NCBI GenBank assembly: GCA_900316365.1
Contig: ONCO01000011.1
Location: 1 to 42,680 of the forward strand
Reading direction: 5' to 3'
Source: an uncultured Erysipelotrichaceae bacterium
GTDB lineage: Bacteria > Bacillota_I > Bacilli_A > RFN20 > CAG-826
DNA: 42,680 bases
Positions 24,222 through 42,680 of the stretch are shown here, piece after piece (position 1 is the stretch's first letter; each line of letters begins with the position of its first letter). The translations under genes and the position numbers were made by a program. The notes under the pieces are model-generated. The model was given only the letters and a program-made list of their open reading frames with translations. It ran no database searches and was not told where the DNA came from.

Positions 24222-24677
24222 TTAGTTGTTCTTTAGATATTCGATGAAGGCGTCGACCGCTTGTTTAATCAATGAGTAGCTATATTCCCATCTACCGGTG
24301 AAATATGGATCCTCGATATCTTGTTCTGGGCTTAGGTAATCACCTAATCTAGCAACCTTAGACATATCGCTTAGATAGAGGTTTCTTTTTAGCTGCACCT
24401 TTTGATCGGCAACCATAACAAGAACGTAATCAGATTCAGCGATATCTTGCCTAGTCGCCATCTTAGCGGAATGCTTTGGATGGGGAATGCCATCCCTATC
24501 AAGCATCTCCGCCATCGAGTGATGGATATCCTGTCCCATGGTGCTGAAGATGAGTCCTTTGCTAGTAGCGAAATAGCTATCCTTTAAGCCTTCTTGGGCG
24601 ATGCGGTAATTAAAGTAAGCTTCAGCGCTTGGGGAACGGCAGACATTGCCTTCGCAGATAAATAAAACGTGCTTCAT
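24222..24677 (-). CDS. Low-molecular-weight protein-tyrosine phosphatase
   Basis: The 151-residue protein has the family active-site loop CEGNVCRSP (nucleophile Cys8, Arg14, Ser15) and the general-acid Asp in EDPYF (Asp123). Its length is normal for the family. In capsule and exopolysaccharide systems such phosphatases (Wzb/CpsB-like role) dephosphorylate the tyrosine cluster of the BY-kinase. Here the kinase gene lies 2.2 kb away on the opposite strand, so this is a likely partner by function, not by operon. An extended -10 ends 12 bases before the ATG and no Shine-Dalgarno is present, so the mRNA probably has almost no leader. Confidence 0.88.
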   Translation of the reverse strand: MKHVLFICEGNVCRSPSAEAYFNYRIAQEGLKDSYFATSKGLIFSTMGQDIHHSMAEMLDRDGIPHPKHSAKMATRQDIAESDYVLVMVADQKVQLKRNLYLSDMSKVARLGDYLSPEQDIEDPYFTGRWEYSYSLIKQAVDAFIEYLKNN

Positions 24678-24689
24678 AATCTAGGGTCA

Positions 24690-24698
24690 ATTATAGCA
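24690..24698 (-). promoter_or_regulatory. Extended -10 close to the phosphatase ATG
   Basis: On the minus strand TG-C-TATAAT (24698-24690) is a consensus extended -10. Twelve bases separate it from ATG 24677, which gives a leader of about five bases and no room for a Shine-Dalgarno. Confidence 0.6.
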
Positions 24699-24816
24699 AA
24701 TATCTCCTTTATTCCACCCCCGAATTATTTAAGTCCTATTACACGCGTAGGCGCGAAATAAACATTTAAGTTATGGGGTTAGATGGTTTAGACTATGCAT
24801 TAGGCAAACAACAACC

Positions 24817-25863
24817 ATGGACGCATTATTAGATTTCATTAAGGCCATCGTCTTCGGTATCGTCGAAGGCATTACGGAATGGCTACCTGTCTCCTCTACC
24901 GGACATATGATCATCCTCGAGGAGTTCTTCTCTCTCAAGGAGACCCAAGGAAGTGCATTCTTTGAGTTCTTCCTGGTCATCATCCAGTTAGCGGCTATCA
25001 TGGCGGTCATCATCAATTTCTTCAGTGACCTCTGTCCGTTCTGCAAAAACAAGACCGCCGAACAAAGGAAGGCCGTCTGGCTGAAATGGGGCAACATCCT
25101 CATCGCCTCCATCCCTGCCGCCGTCTTCGGCATCCTTTTCGATGATTGGCTCGATGCCCATTTACATAACTATGTAACTGTTGCCTCTACCCTTATCATC
25201 TATGGTTTAGCCTTCATCGCTATCGAAACCATCCTCGTTGGCAAAAAGAAAAAGGCCCAGAGACGTTATCACCTTGACTCCGTCTCCTCTACCATCGATG
25301 AAGGTAAAGACCCATATGGTATCTTTAGGACTCACCACGTTGAGCACATCACCATCCAGCAAGCTATGATCATCGGTCTTGCCCAGTGCTTAGCCCTTAT
25401 CCCAGGCACTTCCCGTTCTGGTGTCACCATCTGCGCCGCCCTACTACTTTCTATCGATAGAACTACCGGCACTGAATTCAGTTTCTACCTCTCCATCCCA
25501 GCGATGGTTGGCGGTTCCCTTATCAAGACCGTCTCCTTTGTTAGACACGGCAATACCTTAACCGGTATGCAGTTTGGCATCTTAGCGGTTGCCTGCGCTG
25601 TATCCTTTGTCGTCTCCTTCCTTGTCATTAGGTTCTTGTTACGTTTCTTAAGAACCAGAACCTTTATCTCTTTCGGCGTATACCGCGTCGTATTTGGTTG
25701 CTTCTTGCTCATCCTCTACTTCAGCCTTATCAGAACTGGTAATGGCGCGGAGGCTGTCGCAAGTACCAACGATTTCCTTATCAACGCTTATCAACCATCC
25801 ATGCTTAGCGGCGTGAAATTAACTCTACCTTCAATAAACAATCCATTAAGGATTGCTCTATAA
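24817..25863 (+). CDS. uppP: Undecaprenyl-diphosphate phosphatase (UppP/BacA family)
   Basis: The membrane enzyme hydrolyses undecaprenyl diphosphate to the monophosphate, recycling the lipid carrier for peptidoglycan and capsule. Both family motifs are present: EGITEWLPVSSTGHM (residues 17-31) and PGTSRSG (about 198-204). At 348 residues it is longer than the usual 260-280. Much of the extra length is a charged, probably cytoplasmic insertion (VGKKKKAQRRYHLD..., KDPYGIFRTHHVEH) between the motifs; the C-terminal tail is also extended. No clear Shine-Dalgarno precedes the ATG. It is the first gene of an apparent operon with the Wzz-like and BY-kinase genes, which fits a role in surface-polymer export. 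Confidence 0.9.
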   Translation: MDALLDFIKAIVFGIVEGITEWLPVSSTGHMIILEEFFSLKETQGSAFFEFFLVIIQLAAIMAVIINFFSDLCPFCKNKTAEQRKAVWLKWGNILIASIPAAVFGILFDDWLDAHLHNYVTVASTLIIYGLAFIAIETILVGKKKKAQRRYHLDSVSSTIDEGKDPYGIFRTHHVEHITIQQAMIIGLAQCLALIPGTSRSGVTICAALLLSIDRTTGTEFSFYLSIPAMVGGSLIKTVSFVRHGNTLTGMQFGILAVACAVSFVVSFLVIRFLLRFLRTRTFISFGVYRVVFGCFLLILYFSLIRTGNGAEAVASTNDFLINAYQPSMLSGVKLTLPSINNPLRIAL

Positions 25864-25897
25864 TGAGTAATTGGTCCAAGAAAGGTGTAAACATTCC

Positions 25898-26833
25898 ATG
25901 GAACAGAAAGACATCAATGAATCCGTTGAGACCTTAGAACCTCAAACGGAAAGTTCTATCGGCGAGACTCAAGTCGCCTATACGTTTAAAGACTTCCTTA
26001 AGATGATCGGCAAGCATTGGGTTGCCCTTGTTTTAGCCGCCCTCTTAGGTCTTGCTGGAGGCGTTGTCTATGGCCGTTATGTCCAGAAGCCAAAGTATGA
26101 AGCTTCCTCAAGCTTATACATCTTGAATAACGAGGTTTCTGATAAGGCTAATGATCGCATCACCTACGCGAAGAACATGGCCCGTATCGCCTCTAACTAC
26201 ATGACCCAGACCGAGGTTAAGGAAGTTGCCTGCAAACTCCTTACCGGCGACCTTGAATACAAAGGCAAAGAGAACAGCTTTGAAGGCGCATATACCCCAT
26301 ATGGCAAATACGCCGTGTTCGCAAAGACCAATGACAACAACGAGAAAGTGTATGACACCACCGCTCTTGGAAAATGCTACAAAGTTACCTTAGAGCAGTT
26401 TAACACCAGCGACACTTCCATCTTCTTACACATCAACACCACCACTAAGAACGAGGAATTATCCATCGACGTTGCTAACGCCGTCGTTTCCGCGACCATG
26501 ATGTTGACCGAGGACGAAGAAAGCAGCCCAATCGCCAAAGAACTTAAAGGCTACATCCACTGCATGGCTCCAGCCAATAGCGCTACCAACACCGCCACGA
26601 AGACTTATGTCTTAGCGATCATTGGCACCTTGCTTGGCGCCATCTTAGGCGCTGCCTATGGCATCTTACGCGTCATGCTCAGCACCCGCGTTGCTACCAA
26701 GAAAGAGCTCGAAATCATCACCGGCATTAAAGTCATCGGCATGATTCCAGACTACATTGAGAAAGACGACTCCACTCAGTCGACCCTTGAAAAAGACGAC
26801 GCCGAACATAAAGTCGAGAAGGAGGGCAAATAA
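25898..26833 (+). CDS. Wzz/CpsC-like chain-length determinant
   Basis: The 311-residue protein has the layout of polysaccharide co-polymerases: an N-terminal membrane segment (WVALVLAALLGLAGGVVYGRYV), an external domain beginning PKYEASSSLYIL, and a C-terminal membrane segment (TYVLAIIGTLLGAILGAAYGILRVML). An acidic and basic cytoplasmic tail follows. The pattern P-x-Y-E-A-S-S after the first segment is characteristic of the Wzz domain. Start ATG 25898 is preferred to TTG 25871; AAAGGTG lies about 11 nt upstream. In Gram-positive systems such a protein activates the BY-kinase, encoded immediately downstream with a 2-bp gap. Confidence 0.87.
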   Translation: MEQKDINESVETLEPQTESSIGETQVAYTFKDFLKMIGKHWVALVLAALLGLAGGVVYGRYVQKPKYEASSSLYILNNEVSDKANDRITYAKNMARIASNYMTQTEVKEVACKLLTGDLEYKGKENSFEGAYTPYGKYAVFAKTNDNNEKVYDTTALGKCYKVTLEQFNTSDTSIFLHINTTTKNEELSIDVANAVVSATMMLTEDEESSPIAKELKGYIHCMAPANSATNTATKTYVLAIIGTLLGAILGAAYGILRVMLSTRVATKKELEIITGIKVIGMIPDYIEKDDSTQSTLEKDDAEHKVEKEGK

Positions 26834-26835
26834 CC

Positions 26836-27675
26836 ATGGAAGAGAAAAAGAAGAAGAAAACCTCATTAGGCAAGAAACTTACCACGGTCGAAACCGGCCC
26901 TGCCCCAAAACGTATTAACGAAGTTAGCTTAGTCGACCTTGAATCTGACGTTGCTGACGCCTATCTCCGTTTACAGACCAACATCAGTTTTGCTTCTATC
27001 GACAAAGAACTTAGATGCTTTGCTATGACTTCTGCAGAAGAGGCTGAAGGCAAAACCACCTCTATCTCTAACCTCGCCTATGTCTATGCCCAGAAAGGCC
27101 TTAAGGTTCTCCTTATCGACTTAGACTTAAGAAGGCCATCTGTTCATAAGTTCCTTCAGTTAAACAACTCCATCGGCGTGGTCGACATCTGCAAGGGCGA
27201 CGCCACCTTCAAGGATGCGGTCCAGCATTTCGAAAAGGGAAATTTCGACGTCCTTACTCCAGGCACGAAAACACCATTCCCTGGCAAGATCTATGAATCC
27301 AAGGCTTTGGCCGATATCATCGAGCAAGCCAAAAAAGACTATGACTTCGTCCTCATCGACACCGCTCCGATCTTAGTCGTTAACGACGCCTTAGCAATCG
27401 CGTCTCACATTGACGGTTACGTCCTCGTCTGCGCGCAGCACCTCTCCCGCAAGAGAAGCGTTCTCGACGCCGTAAACAACCTTCGTTCCAAAGGTATCAA
27501 TATCATTGGTATCTGCATGACTATGTGCGATAACTACGAAGACGCTGGACGTGGTTATGGTTATAGCTACAGCTATGGTTATGGAAACAAATACGGCTAT
27601 GGCTATGGTCGTTATGGCGGATACCGTAACGATGGTAAGTCCCACCACCCACACAGCGAAGAAAACGATAAATAA
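26836..27675 (+). CDS. CpsD/CapB-like bacterial tyrosine kinase
   Basis: The 279-residue protein is the cytoplasmic kinase that works with the Wzz-like protein to control capsule synthesis. It has a variant Walker A (SAEEAEGKTT, Lys73), Walker A' (VLLIDLDLRRP, 93-101) and Walker B (FVLIDTAP, 171-178). The C-terminal tail (234-263) is a Gly/Tyr cluster with eleven tyrosines, the expected autophosphorylation site, and it ends in a His-rich tip. In the Walker A loop the usual Pro-Gly is Glu-Ala. GGAGG sits nine to ten bases before the ATG. The operon ends at the 27694-27718 terminator with no glycosyltransferase genes, so the cognate polysaccharide locus must be elsewhere, possibly at 39-42 kb. 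Confidence 0.9.
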   Translation: MEEKKKKKTSLGKKLTTVETGPAPKRINEVSLVDLESDVADAYLRLQTNISFASIDKELRCFAMTSAEEAEGKTTSISNLAYVYAQKGLKVLLIDLDLRRPSVHKFLQLNNSIGVVDICKGDATFKDAVQHFEKGNFDVLTPGTKTPFPGKIYESKALADIIEQAKKDYDFVLIDTAPILVVNDALAIASHIDGYVLVCAQHLSRKRSVLDAVNNLRSKGINIIGICMTMCDNYEDAGRGYGYSYSYGYGNKYGYGYGRYGGYRNDGKSHHPHSEENDK

Positions 27676-34759: not shown

Positions 34760-35581
34760 CTATTTTTCGAGTAGCGCCGATATTTCATTCATTTTGCGGA
34801 AACAATTCAGCCAATCATTGAATTGTAGGAGACTGTTCAACAGCACAAACAGTTTAAGACAATCCATTTTGTCGACTCTTCTAGTGAATATGCCATGCAT
34901 TATCCTGTTGCGATTTATCTCTTTTGGCTCAGGATCGGCTTCTGTTGATCTTGCGTAAAAATGCTCCGAAAGATAATCATTCATGCGTCTTTCGAACTTC
35001 ATAAAATACTCTTTATTGAAGCAAACCACAGAGCCTGTTTGTTCTTTTTTAACTTCATTCGACATCGAAAATATCTTTGATTTGTCAAAATCAGAAATAC
35101 TCCTTTGGACGTTTTCGATACAAGAAAACAAAGTGCAAGCGCAAGCAAAGTACTTCCGCTCTTTGTAACAAAAGACGGCTTCGCCAACCTGTTCTCCTGC
35201 ATCACGCAAAACCGGCATTAAGTAATTGAAATACTTATCGTAAAGGTAAGAATTCCTCTCGTTCTGATCTTTAAAAGATCTTTCGCTTGAGACGGAATAG
35301 TTTTTCAACCATATGAACCACCCGTTTTCAGCGTCAAGTTCATTGATTTTTGAGGTCACAGATTCGATGTTGTAATAATCAAATTTTAGCCAGTAAAAAA
35401 TGTAGCAGTTTCGCAAATAGGCGAGGTTATTATCCTTGGTGTTGTGCCCCTTAAGTATCTCTTCGTCTTTGCGCAGCTTTTCCTTGAGTTGCTTTATCAT
35501 TTCGAGGATGTCATTCAGGCTCATGATTCCCCCGATTTCAAAAGAAGATATATGCTTTGTTTCTTTATCCACGATTACCAT
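34760..35581 (-). CDS. HEPN-motif protein of unknown family (possible defence RNase)
   Basis: I do not recognise the whole 273-residue protein. It is predominantly helical, with a coiled-coil-like start (LEMIKQLKEKLRKDEEIL). Near the C-terminus is NRNRIMHGI, which contains R-N-x3-H (Arg224, Asn225, His229), the R-x4-6-H signature of HEPN ribonucleases; the following helix (VDKMDCLKLFVLLNSLL) fits that fold. HEPN proteins often act as toxins or phage-defence effectors. No Shine-Dalgarno precedes ATG 35581. ATG 35524 (MSLNDILEM) has GGGGG four bases upstream and may be the true start. It is the last of four minus-strand genes that include Shedu-like and HNH nucleases. Confidence 0.65.
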   Translation of the reverse strand: MVIVDKETKHISSFEIGGIMSLNDILEMIKQLKEKLRKDEEILKGHNTKDNNLAYLRNCYIFYWLKFDYYNIESVTSKINELDAENGWFIWLKNYSVSSERSFKDQNERNSYLYDKYFNYLMPVLRDAGEQVGEAVFCYKERKYFACACTLFSCIENVQRSISDFDKSKIFSMSNEVKKEQTGSVVCFNKEYFMKFERRMNDYLSEHFYARSTEADPEPKEINRNRIMHGIFTRRVDKMDCLKLFVLLNSLLQFNDWLNCFRKMNEISALLEK

Positions 35582-35655
35582 TCATTAAGTGCTACCGTCA
35601 TTCATTTGCCCCAAAAAAGAAAAATAGTTGTTACCTTAACGGCGAATAGGCGAGT

Positions 35656-36753
35656 TCATTCACCATCCTTGTCGATGTGATAGTACCTTAGCAGTTTATC
35701 GATAGTGATTTTTATCCCCGCCTGCGCAAGTTTTTCCTTTCTTTTTTCAAATAGTTTCTTAATTAACACGTCAGCACGCTTTCCGTAGTGGATCTCATTA
35801 TGGCAACTACTGCAAAGAGACACGATGTTCTCTGGCACATCGATTGAGTACTCAAAATCACCTTGATTGCACATAGGGATTAAATGGTGCACCTCAGTAT
35901 ATGGTTTGCCATCCTTTTTTCGAGGAAAGCAATAGTGAGATGAATCAAGCTCACATTTGTGCCCTGCAAGCTTAAGCGCATAAAGCGCCATCTTAGGGTT
36001 GCGAGGGTAGACAAGCGCACCACTCCCGATTTTTACGGGCTTTTCTTTATCCACCAGATGCGTCTCATATTCACCGGTTGGATCCGTTTCTCCAGTCACC
36101 GCTACGTTCAGGAGGTAATCTCTCTCATCATTGATGTCCATGACATCATTTTTATCGTACCCCCCATACTGCCTATAGAGGTATCTCATAAACTCATAGT
36201 TAGACATATTTGGTCTAAATGTGGTTTTGTAGTTCAACAGTTTCCGTTGGGAAGCTTGAAAGCTCGCACTAGGAGAAAGACCAAGTCTACCCTCAAAGTA
36301 TCGCAAATCTTTATCGGAAAAAATCGGGAGCATAATCCGGGGATTATAGAGATACATGATCTTGTGTTTGAAGGTGCCGCTAATCAAAGAATCAATCTCT
36401 TCGTACTCGCTTAACGCCTTCGTTTCTCGAATTAGCTTTGAAAGGGCGATTTTAATCTCTTCGAATGCCCTTTCCACATCCTCGTTAAAATGCTTCTTAG
36501 TCGCTCTATATTTCTTCTTTTTGTCCTTGCCAAACAATCCAAACCAAAGGCCGAACTTCGATGCATTCGATCCTCGTATTTCACCAATCGAGCGCAAGCC
36601 AACTTCCACTAGATAGCAGAATGATTTATTGCTGGGCCCACGACCAAGAACATAGTCATCCTTATCGGACATCGACTCGATATACTCGGGCGTATACTTA
36701 TTGACGAAATCATTCCATAACCGTTTAATAGACGGGTCTATTGTTTCAGACAT
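35656..36753 (-). CDS. HNH endonuclease
   Basis: The 365-residue protein ends in a clear HNH nuclease domain: Cys267 in HKCELD, the catalytic pair EVHHLIPM (His289, His290), Asn309 in ENIVSLCSSC (Cys314, Cys317), and His318 and His322 in HNEIHYG. The cysteines form the usual zinc-binding frame. The first 240 residues are an unrecognised domain that may bind DNA or sense a target, including a basic stretch KDKKKKYRATKKHF. ATG 36753 has GGAGAG eight bases upstream and is preferred to an earlier in-frame start at 36792. Such HNH proteins often serve in restriction-like defence; here it lies between the Shedu-like nuclease and the HEPN-motif protein. Confidence 0.82.
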   Translation of the reverse strand: MSETIDPSIKRLWNDFVNKYTPEYIESMSDKDDYVLGRGPSNKSFCYLVEVGLRSIGEIRGSNASKFGLWFGLFGKDKKKKYRATKKHFNEDVERAFEEIKIALSKLIRETKALSEYEEIDSLISGTFKHKIMYLYNPRIMLPIFSDKDLRYFEGRLGLSPSASFQASQRKLLNYKTTFRPNMSNYEFMRYLYRQYGGYDKNDVMDINDERDYLLNVAVTGETDPTGEYETHLVDKEKPVKIGSGALVYPRNPKMALYALKLAGHKCELDSSHYCFPRKKDGKPYTEVHHLIPMCNQGDFEYSIDVPENIVSLCSSCHNEIHYGKRADVLIKKLFEKRKEKLAQAGIKITIDKLLRYYHIDKDGE

Positions 36754-36890
36754 TATTATCTCTCTCCAAATAGTATTTCGATCTAACGGCACTAACAGGT
36801 TTAAACAGCAACCAAACTTTTAAAAAACTCATAGGTGGAAAGCTGCAGTTTTTACGGAAAACCATGTTAAAACCATCCTAAAAGTATTAT

Positions 36891-37904
36891 TTATATTTGT
36901 GGTCGCTCAGAGACATCGCTACTCGAATCACCGCTTATTCCTATCATATTTGCGGCTCGTTTGTACAACTGGTCATATGTAAGAATAGTTATTCTGTTTA
37001 GTGATGAATTCAACAGCCTAAACGCAAGTTGTTTATCTTCGTCCCAATCGTTCGACCTACCGAAAACAAGAAGACATCTCGGGCTAGCAATGGGTGTTTT
37101 TGCAACCCGCCTATCAAATTCTTTGCTATCAGATTTACAATCGATTTTGTGTAAATAGTTCCTGCATTGAGTGAGTGCCTTAATTAATTCTGTACTCGGA
37201 ACATGATTATTGTGATCCAAAGAATTGCTCCAAAAACTCATCCCGTTAGGCTTTTTGATCTCTACTATATCTAAGAACCCATCGTCTGATTTCATCAAAT
37301 AATCTGCAATGTGTTCCGTATCTATTTTTCTCTCATCTAGTATCTTGGCAAATTCAGACCCAAGCATCCATTTATTATTCTCAAACCATTCTTGCCAATA
37401 GCTTTCAGGTTCATCTTTTTCAAGAGCATTCTTGAAAGCATCTAGAGCTTTTACCCTACTAGAATGTTCGATAGCCGAAGATATATCTCCGGTTATTACT
37501 CCACTATCAATTAGTGCTTTTGCCTTAGCTAAGTTGTTAGCAGCCAAAGACTTAAACCTCTTTAGAAGCACACCTATATCGTTTTTGCCGTTCAGAGGGA
37601 TAAAACTATCAGCGCCAGTTTTCAACGCACCAAAGTTACTTTCGATAAAAGCAATTAATGCGTGCAATTCTTCGTCATCTAAATGAATTTCGCATTTTGG
37701 GTCTCTTTTTTCCCACCCGTCCTTGATATCGAACCTTGCTATTCTCAGCGCGAAAGTGTCGTTATCAGCGTGATGGTGCGGTATTCTCTCCAGCACTGCT
37801 TTTGTAACGACGTTAGGTTTCTTGCGCAACACTCCGTGAATAAAACGGACCCCTTTATTCGAAGTCTGTATATACTTCGCTTCAGGATCATAGACTATTT
37901 TCAA
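36891..37904 (-). CDS. Shedu (SduA / DUF4263) family antiphage nuclease
   Basis: The C-terminal half carries the DUF4263 nuclease signature of the Shedu defence protein: WQEWFENNKWMLG (170-182), then DGFLDIVEIKKP (208-219), a PD-(D/E)xK site with Asp212, Glu215 and Lys217. The N-terminal about 160 residues are unrecognised; in Shedu proteins this part is variable and is thought to sense infection. The start is TTG 37904, because a perfect AGGAGG (37912-37917) lies seven bases upstream and no ATG is available. The gene lies 33 bp after the membrane-anchored 37938-38942 gene and is probably co-transcribed with it. Confidence 0.8.
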   Translation of the reverse strand: MKIVYDPEAKYIQTSNKGVRFIHGVLRKKPNVVTKAVLERIPHHHADNDTFALRIARFDIKDGWEKRDPKCEIHLDDEELHALIAFIESNFGALKTGADSFIPLNGKNDIGVLLKRFKSLAANNLAKAKALIDSGVITGDISSAIEHSSRVKALDAFKNALEKDEPESYWQEWFENNKWMLGSEFAKILDERKIDTEHIADYLMKSDDGFLDIVEIKKPNGMSFWSNSLDHNNHVPSTELIKALTQCRNYLHKIDCKSDSKEFDRRVAKTPIASPRCLLVFGRSNDWDEDKQLAFRLLNSSLNRITILTYDQLYKRAANMIGISGDSSSDVSERPQI

Positions 37905-37937
37905 AGGCAACCCTCCTCGCACCAAAAACGATGCTTA

Positions 37938-38942
37938 TTACTGCAAAAAATTCTTCGGATACTTATTAAACAAGTAATCAAAACTCAAACTCACATCCTC
38001 AACAAATCCAGCATCCTTATTGCCATCTTTCATGCCTAGTACGTTGATAGACTGTATAGTCTCCCTAACAGGGGCGTTGATGTTGGTCCATAACATAACG
38101 AACGATTTGTTCCTGCGGCTTTCGCCATAGTCATATTCAGCAATCGTAATCGGCATCTGGTATTCGTCGGTATAGAAATGGAGTTCTACCCCACCACCAT
38201 TTTTAGAATGTGAATTCACCTCTTTAAGAAGTTTGACAGCCAATATCGTCTCGGTGATGTCGCTTCCATATATGTTGAGTCGCTCATCCCAGATATCATG
38301 TTTCTCCTCATCGGTGAGCTGATCGTATTTTCTTCCTTTAAGCAGTTTCTTGAAGTGCGCGGCAGAAAGCATTAGAAACTCTCGTTCTGGATATGATAAG
38401 GCTGCCAAAGCATCTCCGGAAAGTTCCCAGTTACGGATGCTTCTATCGATAATCTCTTCCCTTAAATCATGTGGGAAGATGCATTTCTTAAGGTCATAGG
38501 ATTCGAGTCTCTTCTCGTATTCCGTGTACATAGGATGGCTAAGTGGGCTGAAGAGGAGAACCAGCACTTTGGTGCCGGACTCAACCAGGCGCCTTAAATC
38601 ATCCTGGTAGTCAAAGAAGAAATTAACGCCGGTGAGGAAACATAGCTTTAACTTAGCCGGCTTCTGCTTGCCATTCCTCCCGAACAAGACATTCTGGTCA
38701 GAGATGGACATCTTACCGTTCTTGACCTCAACCTTCTCGATGCCGACTTTGGTGAGACCGTCGCCGATGCTCTTGCTCTTACGTAAAGATTTGTCGATAA
38801 CCACCTTGGTAATCAGGGCAAGAATGATTGCCTGAAGAACCGCAACGACAAAGCCAATCACGATATTAACGTAATATGGCCAGGATTGAAGTTCCTCAGC
38901 GGTTGTCCCAAAAATCACAAATGTACTTACAAACAACATCAT
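37938..38942 (-). CDS. Membrane-anchored protein, possible PLD-like sensor or effector
   Basis: The 334-residue protein has an N-terminal membrane anchor (YYVNIVIGFVVAVLQAIILA), so the rest is probably cytoplasmic. The segment KLKLCFLTGVNFFFDYQDDL, followed by GTKVLVLLFSPLSHP, resembles the strand-helix pattern of phospholipase-D-like proteins of the DUF5919 type, but no HKD motif is seen. A later stretch (VELHFYTDEYQMPITIAEYD) has the same flavour. GGGGA lies just upstream of two adjacent ATGs. It is first in the run of four defence-like genes; a part in signalling or membrane disruption is a guess. Confidence 0.6.
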   Translation of the reverse strand: MMLFVSTFVIFGTTAEELQSWPYYVNIVIGFVVAVLQAIILALITKVVIDKSLRKSKSIGDGLTKVGIEKVEVKNGKMSISDQNVLFGRNGKQKPAKLKLCFLTGVNFFFDYQDDLRRLVESGTKVLVLLFSPLSHPMYTEYEKRLESYDLKKCIFPHDLREEIIDRSIRNWELSGDALAALSYPEREFLMLSAAHFKKLLKGRKYDQLTDEEKHDIWDERLNIYGSDITETILAVKLLKEVNSHSKNGGGVELHFYTDEYQMPITIAEYDYGESRRNKSFVMLWTNINAPVRETIQSINVLGMKDGNKDAGFVEDVSLSFDYLFNKYPKNFLQ

Positions 38943-39054: not shown

Positions 39055-39564
39055 TTACACAACAAACAATTCGACGGAAAGGTCACAAATTATGTGCTGT
39101 ATGAATTCCCTAACAGCACCATCACCGCCACGACGTTTGCAATGATACACTCCACTTCTTTTTAACACTTCTAGCGCCGAATCCTCCGGACATCCAACGA
39201 CGCCATCGTTTTTTAGCAGATACTCCATGCATTCAAGATCATTTTCATCATCGCCGATATAAGCGACCCTCCCAGGCGAAACGCCAAAATCCGAAATAAC
39301 TTTTAGCAAAGCCTCACGCTTGTTTTCGACACCCTGGTACACATGGCTAATTCCCAATTCTTCACATCTCTTTAAAACGATTCTCGACTCGCGGCCCGTG
39401 ATGATGACTGGAGTGATTTCATTCTTTCGCAGCACGTTTTTAATTCCAAAACCATCCTTAACGCTAAAGGCTTTAAACATCTCGCCTTCATTTCCGATAT
39501 AGAGTTTTCCATCGGTCAATGTGCCATCGACGTCCATGACCAATAAATCTATTCTTTTTCCCAT
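39055..39564 (-). CDS. KdsC-like HAD phosphatase
   Basis: The 169-residue protein is a minimal (capless) HAD phosphatase of the KdsC/acylneuraminate-9-phosphatase type. Motifs are MDVDGTLTDG (nucleophile Asp11, Asp13), IITGRES (Thr56), and GDDENDLE (Asp105, Asp106, Asp109). The C-terminal RGGDGAVREF is the tail that closes the active site in KdsC. Such enzymes remove the phosphate from an ulosonate phosphate before CMP activation. It starts one base after the aldolase stop codon, with no separate Shine-Dalgarno, so translation is coupled. Position beside a CMP-sugar synthetase supports a sugar-acid role; the exact substrate is unknown. Confidence 0.85.
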   Translation of the reverse strand: MGKRIDLLVMDVDGTLTDGKLYIGNEGEMFKAFSVKDGFGIKNVLRKNEITPVIITGRESRIVLKRCEELGISHVYQGVENKREALLKVISDFGVSPGRVAYIGDDENDLECMEYLLKNDGVVGCPEDSALEVLKRSGVYHCKRRGGDGAVREFIQHIICDLSVELFVV

Positions 39565-39565
39565 A

Positions 39566-41152
39566 TTATTCGTACTTAGACGGGGTTATAAACCTAACTC
39601 CAATCCCTTTCTTTTTAATGTCCTCAAACATTTTTTTATAGAAGCGGTTTCTTCTCTCGACCTGTTCGTCATTCGCCGGCCTTCTCAAAGAAGGATCGAA
39701 GTAGTTTTCGTTGATGTTGGATGAGAAGCCGTCAAAACCAGCGAGGATCAATCCTTTAACACCACAAGCGATTAAAAGGTTCGTAGCGATAACGGAGGAC
39801 GAGTCGTGCGTTTTATCATCGACACTAATCCATTTTTTATAGTCCAGTATCTTAACGTTGCCGCGACCACCTTTCGAAACCGCCGAAGTAACAATAACAT
39901 TTTTCCCGTCGAGGACAGCCTGATCATAGACATCCTTTCGTGTCGTTAACACATAGTCCACGCCAAAATCGCACGTTAGGTTTAAACCTATAGACAAAGC
40001 GCCACTATCTTTGATTGCTTCTAAAACGTCCGCCTTGTATTTCTTCAACGACTTCCCGGGAGCGACCAGCAAAATGGTTTTGCCGCCGAATTCTTTTTTC
40101 AGTTCATCAATAACATTAGAATCATCAACAGTTTTCGATTCGTTATACTCGCGATAAAGCTTCTCGGCATATTCTTTGTCAAAAGATATCTTCTTTTCCT
40201 CGGAAATCATTCCTAGCAATTCACCAACATGATCGATTGGCAGCATGTGCTTGTTATAAAAATAACTGGCATAACTCGGCGTGCAATGATTCGCCGATGA
40301 TAAATAGTATTCAGGAGCGTAACCCCAATAGAACTCGGCGTGAAGCTGGTTAATAACCTTGTCCATGACTTCCAAAAGTGGCGGAATCTTGTATTGTTTG
40401 CCATAGTAAAGATTCAAGTGTTCAAGCAATAATTCGGTGTTTAGGTTGCCTGCCCCTTTACCCATTCCCATTATCGAACTATCTAGCATAAGATTTCTAT
40501 TCGTTGGAAACTGTAGCAAAGCGCATGCATTTGAATAGGACATTTGCAGGTTGTTGTGCGAATGGAATCCAAGAGTCATAGACGGAATTAAATTATGGTC
40601 GACCAAATTCAACAGCCTATCCATATCATTCGGCCGCATTTCGCCAAAGCTATCAACTATGTAAAAGCCGGACGCGTCAGGCAATTCTTTGTTGACCAAA
40701 TCAATCAGCTCTAACAACTCATTATCTGAATATCGCATGGTAATCATAGGTTGAATGAAAAACTGATATCCCTTAGCCATAATCTTTTTTCCAAGAGGGA
40801 TCATGTCCTTCATGTTCTTCTTGTGAAACGCCAAGCGGATACCGTCAATTCCACACCCATCATAATCGGAAAGGTTATCGACATTGAACTTCCCATAATC
40901 CATCATAGCGACGTAGGTGACGCCTGCTTTCTTATGTTTTAGGAAATGCTCAGAAATGACTCTTTCGTTGATGAATTGAGTTCTCCCTTGTTCCGACCCT
41001 TTTGTATCGTCTAAATATCCCAATTCGATAACATCAACGCCAGACTCTTCTTCTGCAGCGAGAATTTTGTCCATATAAGGCTGGCCGAAATTAAAATCGA
41101 TAACACAGCCTCCGTCTCTAAGCGTAACATCCAAAACCTTTAGCGAATTCAT
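39566..41152 (-). CDS. Two-domain HMGL-type (DRE-TIM) aldolase protein
   Basis: The N-terminal about 330 residues form a DRE-TIM metallolyase: VLDVTLRDGG (Arg12, Asp13), later GFHSHNNLQMSY with the metal-binding His pair, then GMGKGAGNLNTELLL, typical of 4-hydroxy-2-oxovalerate-aldolase and HMG-CoA-lyase relatives. These enzymes make or break a C-C bond next to a 2-oxo acid. Residues about 360-528 form a second domain beginning ILLVAPGKSLKKYKADVLEA, resembling a Rossmann-like DUF115 or glycosyl-synthesis domain; it looks like a fusion. AGGAGG lies five bases before the ATG and the gap to the CMP-synthetase gene is 9 bp. Such aldolases recur in capsule loci, but the reaction here is not established. 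Confidence 0.82.
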   Translation of the reverse strand: MNSLKVLDVTLRDGGCVIDFNFGQPYMDKILAAEEESGVDVIELGYLDDTKGSEQGRTQFINERVISEHFLKHKKAGVTYVAMMDYGKFNVDNLSDYDGCGIDGIRLAFHKKNMKDMIPLGKKIMAKGYQFFIQPMITMRYSDNELLELIDLVNKELPDASGFYIVDSFGEMRPNDMDRLLNLVDHNLIPSMTLGFHSHNNLQMSYSNACALLQFPTNRNLMLDSSIMGMGKGAGNLNTELLLEHLNLYYGKQYKIPPLLEVMDKVINQLHAEFYWGYAPEYYLSSANHCTPSYASYFYNKHMLPIDHVGELLGMISEEKKISFDKEYAEKLYREYNESKTVDDSNVIDELKKEFGGKTILLVAPGKSLKKYKADVLEAIKDSGALSIGLNLTCDFGVDYVLTTRKDVYDQAVLDGKNVIVTSAVSKGGRGNVKILDYKKWISVDDKTHDSSSVIATNLLIACGVKGLILAGFDGFSSNINENYFDPSLRRPANDEQVERRNRFYKKMFEDIKKKGIGVRFITPSKYE

Positions 41153-41161
41153 GTCATCCTC

Positions 41162-41806
41162 CTAAATATCAAGATTTAACAAAGCCTCAGCGAGTTCGAA
41201 ATCTTCGGGGTTGTCGATATCAACCGCTTCCTTATAACTCACACATTTGATAAATGGCTTAACGCCAATTCTTCTCCTATATTTTAAATAGGTTTCTTTC
41301 GTAAAAACATATATTCCAGATGTCTCACGGTAAATTGGTTTGAGATCTTGCGTCCTAGGGAGATTTGACGCATCAAAATTCAGTGGCTTGCCATCTTGCC
41401 ACAAGAAAGTCTGGATGACTTGCGCGCAAAAGGCCGAATCATGTTCCCCCGATGCAACGGCCTCAATGCACTCTTTCATGGTTTCCGTTTTAATAAACGG
41501 GGCCGTGGCGTGGGCGTAGACATATATATCGGCGTCGACTTCTTCCATGAATGCAGAAAATATCTGATTAAAATTTGACGTTGGCAAATCCAAACTCGGG
41601 TCTCTTTTTATGAACGTTACGCCATCAGGCAAATAGGGAATAACGTCTTCAGAACTGCAAAAAACATTTATCGAATCTAATGGGCCAACCCTTGATAAGC
41701 TTTCCAATTCATAAGCTAGCAGCGGCTTCTCCCCAAGATTCCGAATGTTTTTTCCGGGGCATCTTTCGCTCTTTAGTTTTATAGGCATAACAGCAACAAT
41801 TTTCAT
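41162..41806 (-). CDS. NeuA-like CMP-sugar (acylneuraminate-type) cytidylyltransferase
   Basis: The 214-residue protein matches the acylneuraminate cytidylyltransferase family: PIKLKSERCPGKNI (8-21) is the CTP-binding loop, usually PARGGSKRIPGKNI. VYAHATAPF and ETSGIYVFTKETYL follow in the family order, and the end has VDIDNPEDFELAE. The reaction is sugar acid + CTP giving CMP-sugar + diphosphate. The Gly-Gly-Ser of the loop is Leu-Lys-Ser, so this is a divergent member. GGGAGG lies five bases before the ATG. It precedes the aldolase and phosphatase genes in one operon, implying that a CMP-linked sugar acid is made for a surface glycan. The sugar is not identifiable. Confidence 0.85.
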   Translation of the reverse strand: MKIVAVMPIKLKSERCPGKNIRNLGEKPLLAYELESLSRVGPLDSINVFCSSEDVIPYLPDGVTFIKRDPSLDLPTSNFNQIFSAFMEEVDADIYVYAHATAPFIKTETMKECIEAVASGEHDSAFCAQVIQTFLWQDGKPLNFDASNLPRTQDLKPIYRETSGIYVFTKETYLKYRRRIGVKPFIKCVSYKEAVDIDNPEDFELAEALLNLDI

Positions 41807-41921: not shown

Positions 41922-42680
41922 CTAGTATTCAAAGCTTCTATAAGCCTTGATGATATCGCCATAGCGTCCATCCCTAAGCAGACTAATCATTAACGGTGTA
42001 AACCCGAAGAAAACCTTCTCTACAAGGCCTTTTTCATCGAAAAATGGATCTTCAAGTACGGATCTTTTACTTTCGAAGTATTCAATGTCTTTATCCTGAA
42101 AACCAGGTTTATGCTTATCAAACATGCATTTTAATAGACGCAAAACATACATAATCGTATCCGGAACGGTTTCGAAAGAACTGAGGTATCTTTGGATCTC
42201 AGGCGCATAAGGCATAAAACTATCGACAGACATTGCATAGGATGAAATCTTATCCTGTAGATATGCCACTGCCCTGCCTTCTTTGTCGATAATTAACAAA
42301 TCAGGCTTCAAGCCGTAGATGAAAGAGAAGCCCTCATTAATGTGGCCTCTAATCGTCTTGTACCCATTCCTTCTCAGCATATTCTTAATCGAGGAACAGC
42401 TGACATTACTCCTCCTGATTATTGTTGGATAGTCGCTAAGAGAATGATCAGGTCCAACAAAAAACGCTGCGTCAGCCAAATCCTTATTGTTCTTCAAGGA
42501 AACAAAAGCATCTAGGTTTAGGTTTTTTCTTAGTGCGCCAAAATACATTCTTTGTTCCTTTTTGGGGACCCTAACTTTTGCCCTTTGTTTTCGAATCATG
42601 GCAATGGTCTTACCGACGATGTCCTTTAAAAACAAATAAAACCTTTTAGATAGCGGGACTCTCAGCCTAGATGCCCCACC
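41922..42680 (-). CDS. Unrecognised protein of the sugar operon, cut by the window edge
   Basis: The frame is open from the stop at 41922 to the right edge; the 15 codons upstream of the TTG at 42635 contain no stop and read as protein (SRLRVPLSKRFYLFLKDIVG). The gene therefore probably starts outside the window. I do not recognise the 250 visible residues. They include a basic region (MIRKQRAKVRVPKKEQRMYFG), an acidic end and DAAFFVGPDHSLSDYPTIIRRS. The gene is on the same strand as the CMP-synthetase, aldolase and phosphatase genes with a 115-bp gap, so a role in making or transferring the sugar is possible but unproven. Confidence 0.65.
   Translation of the reverse strand, partial: GGASRLRVPLSKRFYLFLKDIVGKTIAMIRKQRAKVRVPKKEQRMYFGALRKNLNLDAFVSLKNNKDLADAAFFVGPDHSLSDYPTIIRRSNVSCSSIKNMLRRNGYKTIRGHINEGFSFIYGLKPDLLIIDKEGRAVAYLQDKISSYAMSVDSFMPYAPEIQRYLSSFETVPDTIMYVLRLLKCMFDKHKPGFQDKDIEYFESKRSVLEDPFFDEKGLVEKVFFGFTPLMISLLRDGRYGDIIKAYRSFEY

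Follow-up and report, generated by a model that had tools for sequence, protein, structure and literature searches.

Three tightly packed genes near one end of contig ONCO01000011.1 (assembly GCA_900316365.1 of an uncultured Erysipelotrichaceae bacterium, hereafter G000; the whole contig of 42,680 bp is the window analyzed here) probably form a compact module that makes a cytidine monophosphate (CMP)-activated 3-deoxy-2-ulosonate for surface polysaccharide. In the canonical pathways for CMP-3-deoxy-D-manno-octulosonate (CMP-Kdo) and for nonulosonates, the sugar acid is made by a phosphoenolpyruvate (PEP)-dependent synthase of KdsA or NeuB type, and in this module an aldolase would replace that enzyme. 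The predicted activity is partly supported, with comparative genomics and folds as its basis. The genes, the two domains of the aldolase and the open reading frame (ORF) upstream are as follows (aa, amino acids):

41162-41806, minus strand: gene 1 of the triad, NeuA/PseF-like cytidylyltransferase, predicted CMP-ulosonate synthetase, 214 aa
39566-41152, minus strand: gene 2 of the triad, HMGL/DRE-TIM aldolase with two domains, 528 aa
40136-41152, minus strand: N-terminal domain of the aldolase (aa 1-339), DRE-TIM/HMGL barrel, predicted pyruvate aldolase / ulosonate-phosphate synthase
39566-40135, minus strand: C-terminal domain of the aldolase (aa 340-528), HPPK/Maf/sialyltransferase-type fold
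39055-39564, minus strand: gene 3 of the triad, KdsC/YrbI-family HAD phosphatase, 169 aa
41922-42680, minus strand: upstream ORF running off the contig end, 252 aa or more, 115 bp from the triad

The genes of the triad are separated by 9 bp and then by 1 bp, and GGAGG ribosome-binding sites precede the cytidylyltransferase and aldolase genes. These coordinates and both gaps agree between the ORF list and the preliminary description of the window.

From the chemistry of the enzyme families we infer the reaction and its direction, and likewise the substrates and the role of the C-terminal domain. Pyruvate would bind the divalent metal of the aldolase (D13, H197 and H199, together with R12), and its enolate would add to an aldose that would often bear a terminal phosphate, to give a 2-keto-3-deoxy sugar acid or its phosphate. 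The KdsC-family phosphatase, where present, would strip the phosphate and so pull the reversible aldol step forward, and the NeuA-like cytidylyltransferase (KdsB-like in other species) would then form the CMP-sugar. Transfer could be carried out by sialyltransferase-type enzymes, perhaps by the product of the MptE/Maf-like gene that is found in about half of the loci. Loci without KdsC may use an unphosphorylated aldehyde or rely on a different phosphatase. The product could be Kdo or an epimer of it, a nonulosonate, or a C6 or C7 ulosonate.

Enzyme families and folds of the triad

All three families named in the preliminary description were recovered above their cut-offs. The cytidylyltransferase belongs to the NeuA/KdsB type (PF02348 CTP_transf_3, 68.9 bits, cut-off 22.6), with PpNeuA (9t4z, E = 3e-12) as its relative in the PDB, and it scores below the PseF equivalog (TIGR03584, 66.9 bits, cut-off 205.7). 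The phosphatase is a HAD protein (PF00702, 43 bits, cut-off 26.4) of the KdsC/YrbI subfamily (TIGR01670, 135.4 bits, cut-off 106.95). It falls below the models for the Kdo-8-P phosphatase, which is the KdsC equivalog (NF007019, 143.8 bits against 208), and for the Kdn-9-P phosphatase (NF058599, 114.2 bits against 180). The residues of HAD motifs I-IV (D11, D13, T56, K82, D105, D106 and D109) are invariant in 17 aligned sequences. Because the cut-offs for PseF, 4-hydroxy-2-oxovalerate aldolase and KdsC were all missed, names taken from equivalog models are approximate for the triad.

For the aldolase, PF00682 (HMGL-like, 56 bits, cut-off 29) is the sole Pfam family detected for the whole protein at E-values up to 1, and the full-length model has a mean predicted local distance difference test (pLDDT) score of 93.4. 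The nearest solved structure to its barrel is 3dxi (E = 4e-27, Z = 32.6, root mean square deviation (rmsd) 2.4, 293 aligned residues, 28% identity), a structural-genomics entry for the putative aldolase BVU_2661 of Bacteroides vulgatus to which no function is attached; 3dxi differs in having been solved for the N-terminal domain alone, and its title names no pathway. Pyruvate aldolases come next (E = 1e-24 to 5e-17, Z = 28-29), among them DmpG (1nvm, Z = 28.9, rmsd 3.6, 324 aligned residues), with Claisen enzymes behind. The 50 structure matches listed, with Z from 21.5 to 32.6, are all DRE-TIM or HMGL-like by title, which places the barrel in this superfamily.

The 4-hydroxy-2-oxovalerate aldolases of the DmpG/BphI type (1nvm, 4jn6 and 8ih7) share with the window aldolase the fold, the R-D...H-x-H metal site, whose residues R12, D13, H197 and H199 do not vary among 47 aligned sequences, and the GMGxGAGN motif, in which the window aldolase agrees with DmpG. 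They differ from it in that the window aldolase has a cysteine in place of H21, an added C-terminal domain and a cytidylyltransferase partner, with no dehydrogenase in the triad, and it does not reach the DmpG-type equivalog (TIGR03217, 84.1 bits against 286). In modeled fold and aligned metal-site residues, the barrel corresponds to class II pyruvate aldolases.

The C-terminal domain of the aldolase had been overlooked in the preliminary description. Modeled alone (189 aa, pLDDT 94.0), this domain matches best the HPPK of M. jannaschii (8sd5, Z = 12.0, rmsd 3.2, 155 aligned residues), followed by the cell-division regulator SteA (9hmz, Z = 11.2, rmsd 4.1, 153 aligned), the flagellin transferase Maf (5mu5, Z = 10.9, rmsd 4.1, 168 aligned) and CstII (1ro8, Z = 10.8, rmsd 3.4, 157 aligned). 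Mammalian sialyltransferases are found at Z = 10.2 to 7.1 and thiamine pyrophosphokinase (3lm8) at Z = 9.2, and from rank 26 down the matches drop to Z = 5.4 or less. With Foldseek alone, HPPK was the sole match under E = 0.001. Comparison of the profile of this domain with that of the MptE-like genes in the loci described below gave a probability of 71 (E = 3.7e-5); by sequence, PF01973 did not match the aldolase protein (Pfam, E up to 1), and the domain has no Pfam family of its own. It thus has its fold in common with GT42 CstII, Maf and MptE-like (PF01973) proteins and is shorter than CstII chains (about 233-259 aa). Since CMP-sugar transferases are one branch among several in this fold class, the fold does not by itself establish transferase activity; judging from the model, the domain may bind or transfer the CMP-sugar.

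Recurrence of the module and exchange of its partners

A scan of 84,980 species genomes with patterns from the aldolase N-terminus revealed 50 loci. Removal of the duplicates L064 (identical to L012) and L069 (identical to L011) and addition of the window, L011 and L012 gave 51 contexts, several of which end early at contig ends. The hosts belong to Lachnospiraceae, other Clostridia, Bacilli, Bacteroidales, Treponema and Riflebacteria, and their record names point mostly to gut and rumen origin. Carriers named to strain include Lacrimispora algidixylanolytica SPL73 (L040) and Pseudobutyrivibrio sp. OR37 (L035). In 41 of the 51 contexts (two of them fusions) the cytidylyltransferase is found no more than 100 bp upstream of the aldolase, in 45 it is found within 1 kb, and profile and tblastn matches place one anywhere in the locus in 47. 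KdsC is encoded on the aldolase strand in 26 contexts, in 19 of them within 100 bp downstream. The triad, which the preliminary description had suggested seeking in other genomes, therefore recurs beyond chance. In L054 and L065 the cytidylyltransferase and aldolase are fused in one protein, which in L065 is without the C-terminal domain.

The distances of the cytidylyltransferases and of the aldolases are correlated over 31 NeuA-type pairs (r = 0.56, with none of 2000 permutations as high, host phylogeny not corrected for). In the aldolase tree, four Bacteroidota rows sit among Bacillota rows and the window stands apart from its order-mates, though no starred set contains the window; this pattern fits horizontal transfer and is no proof of it. 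In the order-mates G039 and G036 the genes follow the same order, preceded by an MptE-like gene (PF01973, 33.1 and 42.2 bits, respectively, cut-off 34.6), and both modules lie outside any obvious capsule locus; the KdsC ORF of G036 is short and its N-terminal motif is missing.

Genes of sialyltransferase-related families were also identified. An MptE-like gene is present in 23 of the 51 contexts, a polysialyltransferase-family gene in L030 and a GT52 gene in L022; no PF01973 match was found in the window genome, where the GT52 and polysialyltransferase families were not searched. A protein of 995 aa with GT2 and MptE-like domains (L051:6353-9340) adjoins a cytidylyltransferase-aldolase pair. 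The most widely shared of the other families are a glycosyltransferase-2-like cluster (c1, named by reading) in 29 loci, a flippase in 13, and clusters c5 and c7 in 12 and 11. Since no sugar-making enzyme is widely common to the loci, central metabolism is the probable source of the aldehyde.

Two loci, L022 and L044, encode a fusion of the KdsC domain with a DUF386/YhcH (YhcH/NanQ-type) domain that passes the TIGR00022 cut-off and is related to N-acetylneuraminate anomerase, below the cut-off of that model. E. coli YhcH is reported to be a sialate anomerase that gives the open form to an aldolase and serves breakdown there (PMC8141875).

The aldolase is also found with other partners. KdsB-like cytidylyltransferases occur in L045, L055, L057, L058, L060, L061, L066, L013, L080 and L082 and as a second copy in L048. 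Five of them were compared with the CMP-Kdo synthetase equivalog (TIGR00466): those of L013, L045, L057 and L082 pass and that of L080 fails (142.4 against 155.2). The genomes G302, G314, G317, G318 and G074 carry a KdsB-type pair with neither KdsA nor strong NeuB (thresholds below); the PF00793 proteins of the first four have 342-376 aa, the size of synthases of 3-deoxy-D-arabino-heptulosonate 7-phosphate (DAHP).

AroB consumes DAHP, which is itself a 3-deoxy-2-ulosonate phosphate. In L018 (L018:9126-11143, genome G192 of the window's family), a related aldolase of 316 aa ends 2 bp before AroB (355.5, equivalog cut-off 305), within a polysaccharide locus that contains NeuD-family and sugar-phosphotransferase-like genes. 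G192 (91% complete) yielded no type I or type II DAHP synthase and no chorismate synthase, the last in a search that was positive in 14 of 14 control genomes. On these sequence comparisons, the L018 aldolase is the only candidate seen to supply the substrate of AroB. A surface residue derived from dehydroquinate is possible in this locus.

To sample the phylum evenly, 392 of its genomes were drawn and searched with the L018 aldolase as query (E up to 1e-25). Apart from the window, three matched, in L080, L081 and L082, and of these L080 and L082 have the KdsB-like partner. In L080 (genome G657) the aldolase, KdsB-like and KdsC genes stand in a row, and the genome has no PF00793 match, while a NeuB search was not made there. 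L081 has no cytidylyltransferase, and a HAD-IIA phosphatase gene lies directly downstream of the aldolase. In L082, where no KdsC was found within 16 kb, a PfkB kinase (L082:6196-7206) is encoded between the KdsB-type cytidylyltransferase and the aldolase; it resembles 2-keto-3-deoxygluconate (KDG) kinase models, below their cut-offs, and may bear on how many carbons the sugar has. Another branch has a different transferase-type partner, with the aldolase fused to a LicD domain (L066:9953-12223, 756 aa; L068:9989-12229, 746 aa).

Taken more broadly, this DRE-TIM aldolase lineage could represent a third general bacterial route to 3-deoxy-2-ulosonates, substituting for each of the three types of PEP-dependent synthase (next to NeuA-type and KdsB-type cytidylyltransferases and next to AroB), with a main branch in which one polypeptide also carries the sialyltransferase-type-fold domain and couples the making of the CMP-sugar to its handling. 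We put this forward tentatively, as a generalization with perhaps a minority chance of being correct.

PEP-dependent synthases and the weight of the evidence

The absence of a visible NeuB or KdsA gene, reported for the window in the preliminary description, holds for the whole G000 assembly (1.47 Mb, 93.7% complete), in which neither NeuB (PF03102) nor KdsA (TIGR01362) was detected. There is also no match to PF00793, to which KdsA and type I DAHP synthase belong, and neither a type II DAHP synthase nor a chorismate synthase was found in this assembly. Because the contig ends just upstream of the operon, a NeuB or KdsA gene beyond position 42680, which the preliminary description named as the finding that would speak against it, can be excluded solely on what the remainder of the assembly contains. 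A synthase on this missing side of the operon was rejected as an explanation on the ground that none occurs elsewhere in the assembly. Nor does any finding point to unrelated substrates for the three enzymes, the other objection that had been foreseen.

Both synthases were tested in 45 genomes (G000, G036, G039 and 42 others), with NeuB called strong at E below 1e-50 and KdsA called when over the TIGR01362 cut-off. Neither enzyme was found in 22 of the 45. Strong NeuB occurs in 15 of 44 genomes and KdsA over its cut-off in 10 of 48. The Pfam cut-off for NeuB is passed in 26 of 44 genomes, and by G036 outside these 44. Eleven genomes have weak NeuB matches only (best E-values between 1e-5 and 1e-12; most of the ORFs have 340-378 aa), which coincide in place with below-cut-off KdsA matches (for G321 via its twin G036); in our judgement, from the sequences, these look like DAHP synthases. 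Within the ORFs of the loci, four NeuB queries found no NeuB, and a KdsA query found KdsA in L032 alone.

Several observations weigh against the proposed route. At least one of the two synthases, strong NeuB or KdsA, is present in 23 of the 45 genomes, and if the weak NeuB matches are counted as NeuB, just 11 of the 45, including G000 and G039, have neither. Most of the genomes are metagenome-assembled, so absence is weaker evidence than presence. In L032, KdsA lies about 3.5 kb from the aldolase, in a locus that runs from cytidylyltransferase-aldolase through a flippase, a polysialyltransferase-like gene (by cluster) and another cytidylyltransferase from the same family to KdsA, KdsD and KdsC. 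This locus also has a favorable side: from its gene order the NeuA-like family appears to serve the KdsA-made octulosonate, but the aldolase there would need to serve a second ulosonate. The addition of pyruvate in an aldol reaction is reversible. In the alignment to 1nvm, the position of H21, which we take to be the catalytic base of DmpG, is C16 in the window aldolase and C or Y in aligned relatives, so the base must differ from that of DmpG. The fold of the C-terminal domain is shared with the non-transferases HPPK, SteA and thiamine pyrophosphokinase. KdsC is not on the same strand in 25 of the 51 contexts, and four contexts (L050, L053, L067 and L068) are without a cytidylyltransferase. 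Related aldolases in L014, L016 and L017 lie beside acetolactate-synthase-like thiamine pyrophosphate (TPP) enzymes with no cytidylyltransferase, and in L015 the aldolase, again with no cytidylyltransferase, lies beside DegT, a lactate/malate dehydrogenase, an ATP-grasp protein and PEP carboxykinase. L014 adds a DegT aminotransferase, and L014, L016 and L017 are perhaps branched-sugar routes.

The idea that an aldolase occupies the place of NeuB or KdsA stands for many genomes, the 22 with neither synthase among them, and is qualified by the 23 that have one and by the KdsA near the aldolase in L032. Similarly, an aldolase-based route to a CMP-sugar, as first proposed for the window, gains from gene adjacency, the fusions, the KdsB and AroB partners, the sialyltransferase-related genes, the KdsC-YhcH fusions, the PfkB kinase of L082 and the barrel fold with its metal site, whereas the phosphorylated aldehyde of that proposal is less secure, with KdsC on the aldolase strand in 26 of the 51 contexts.

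Alternative explanations, related systems and neighboring genes

Nested within the aldolase-based route is the alternative in which novelty is confined to the synthase, the product being an ordinary sugar, for instance Kdo or an epimer of it. Some partners pass the curated KdsB cut-off, in L032 a member of the NeuA-like family adjoins KdsA-KdsD-KdsC, the phosphatase scores higher against the KdsC than the Kdn-9-P phosphatase model, and in L037 a SIS+CBS protein of KdsD type is encoded directly upstream of the cytidylyltransferase-aldolase pair. However, KdsD over the TIGR00393 cut-off was found in none of 20 genomes with neither synthase, 17 of which gave partial matches below the cut-off. The only one of 21 genomes over this cut-off is G280, which has KdsA (G302 and G317 lie outside that test). 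D-arabinose-5-P is therefore left with no obvious source, which weakens Kdo made via arabinose-5-P as a general answer, and the KDG-kinase-like gene of L082 points to a different chain length. On balance we regard an ordinary product as a doubtful, though serious, candidate.

Less plausible is that the aldolase acts on another 4-hydroxy-2-oxo acid, for a side chain or to provide an aldehyde for another sugar, and that the CMP-sugar acid comes from salvage of an environmental or host ulosonate. Gut bacteria are able to import sialic acids, divergent relatives of the aldolase lie beside TPP enzymes or AMP-binding/NeuD genes, and KdsC is missing in about half of the loci. Yet salvage has no need of a KdsC-type phosphatase, and the cytidylyltransferase-aldolase fusions and the constant adjacency of the two genes speak against it. 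Beyond the cytidylyltransferase, KdsC and MptE-like genes, only the glycosyltransferase-2-like cluster is found in more than 13 loci. We consider salvage unlikely.

A Claisen-type reaction, in which acyl-CoA or another nucleophile would add to a keto sugar to form a branched acid that is then CMP-activated, could be imagined after LeuA and homocitrate synthase, which belong to the DRE-TIM fold (Z about 23-27). The sequence and fold of the window aldolase are nearer to 3dxi, and then to pyruvate aldolases, than to Claisen enzymes, and its GMGxGAGN motif is as in DmpG, unlike the GERAGN motif of LeuA, which makes this reaction quite improbable. That the three genes are chance neighbors of unrelated function on one contig, in favor of which one could cite no more than the edge of the contig and the lack of upstream genes, is scarcely credible given the recurrence, the fusions and the correlated distances.

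If the aldolase-based route is correct, it would be a clear case in which one enzyme has displaced another, an aldolase working toward synthesis while a phosphatase draws the reaction onward, and it would suggest a function for the structural-genomics orphan 3dxi. Annotators recognize sialic-acid-like and Kdo-like sugars by NeuB or KdsA. Many bacteria, largely of guts and rumens, would then make such sugars by a route that this rule does not detect, and surveys of acidic surface sugars would undercount. The canonical CMP-Kdo (KdsD-KdsA-KdsC-KdsB) and NeuB-type pathways share with the module a KdsC-family phosphatase, a NeuA/KdsB-type cytidylyltransferase, location in polysaccharide loci and, in some loci, sialyltransferase-type transferases; in contrast to them, G000 is without a PEP-dependent NeuB or KdsA and has a metal-type aldolase in that place.

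Sialic acid aldolase belongs to the Schiff-base (class I) aldolases. It has been combined with CMP-sialic acid synthetase for one-pot chemoenzymatic synthesis of CMP-sialic acids, in which aldol addition of pyruvate is followed by CMP activation as proposed here (PMC7729866). That system is a laboratory cascade, whereas the module aldolase is of the metal-site type, with its gene next to that of the cytidylyltransferase. No description of the module was found in the open-access literature searched, which includes few subscription papers or preprints. While CMP-ulosonate pathways are already known, the replaced synthase, the fusion to a sialyltransferase-type-fold domain and the breadth of the module appear undescribed.

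As for the surroundings of the triad, the upstream ORF gave no Pfam match (E up to 1) and no NCBIfam match (E up to 0.1), with a best PDB match at E = 0.47. Promoter and terminator scans gave results near chance level, and a phage collection yielded two partial matches (26-28% identity). Beside the triad, the region 34760-38942 of the window encodes a Shedu-type SduA_C protein (36891-37925), an HNH endonuclease-like protein (35656-36792) and two further ORFs without convincing family, and is a possible defense cluster. Farther away, the region 24222-27675 encodes, by reading only, low-molecular-weight tyrosine phosphatase, UppP-like, Wzz-like and BY-kinase-like proteins, a gene set compatible with a kinase-regulated surface polysaccharide.

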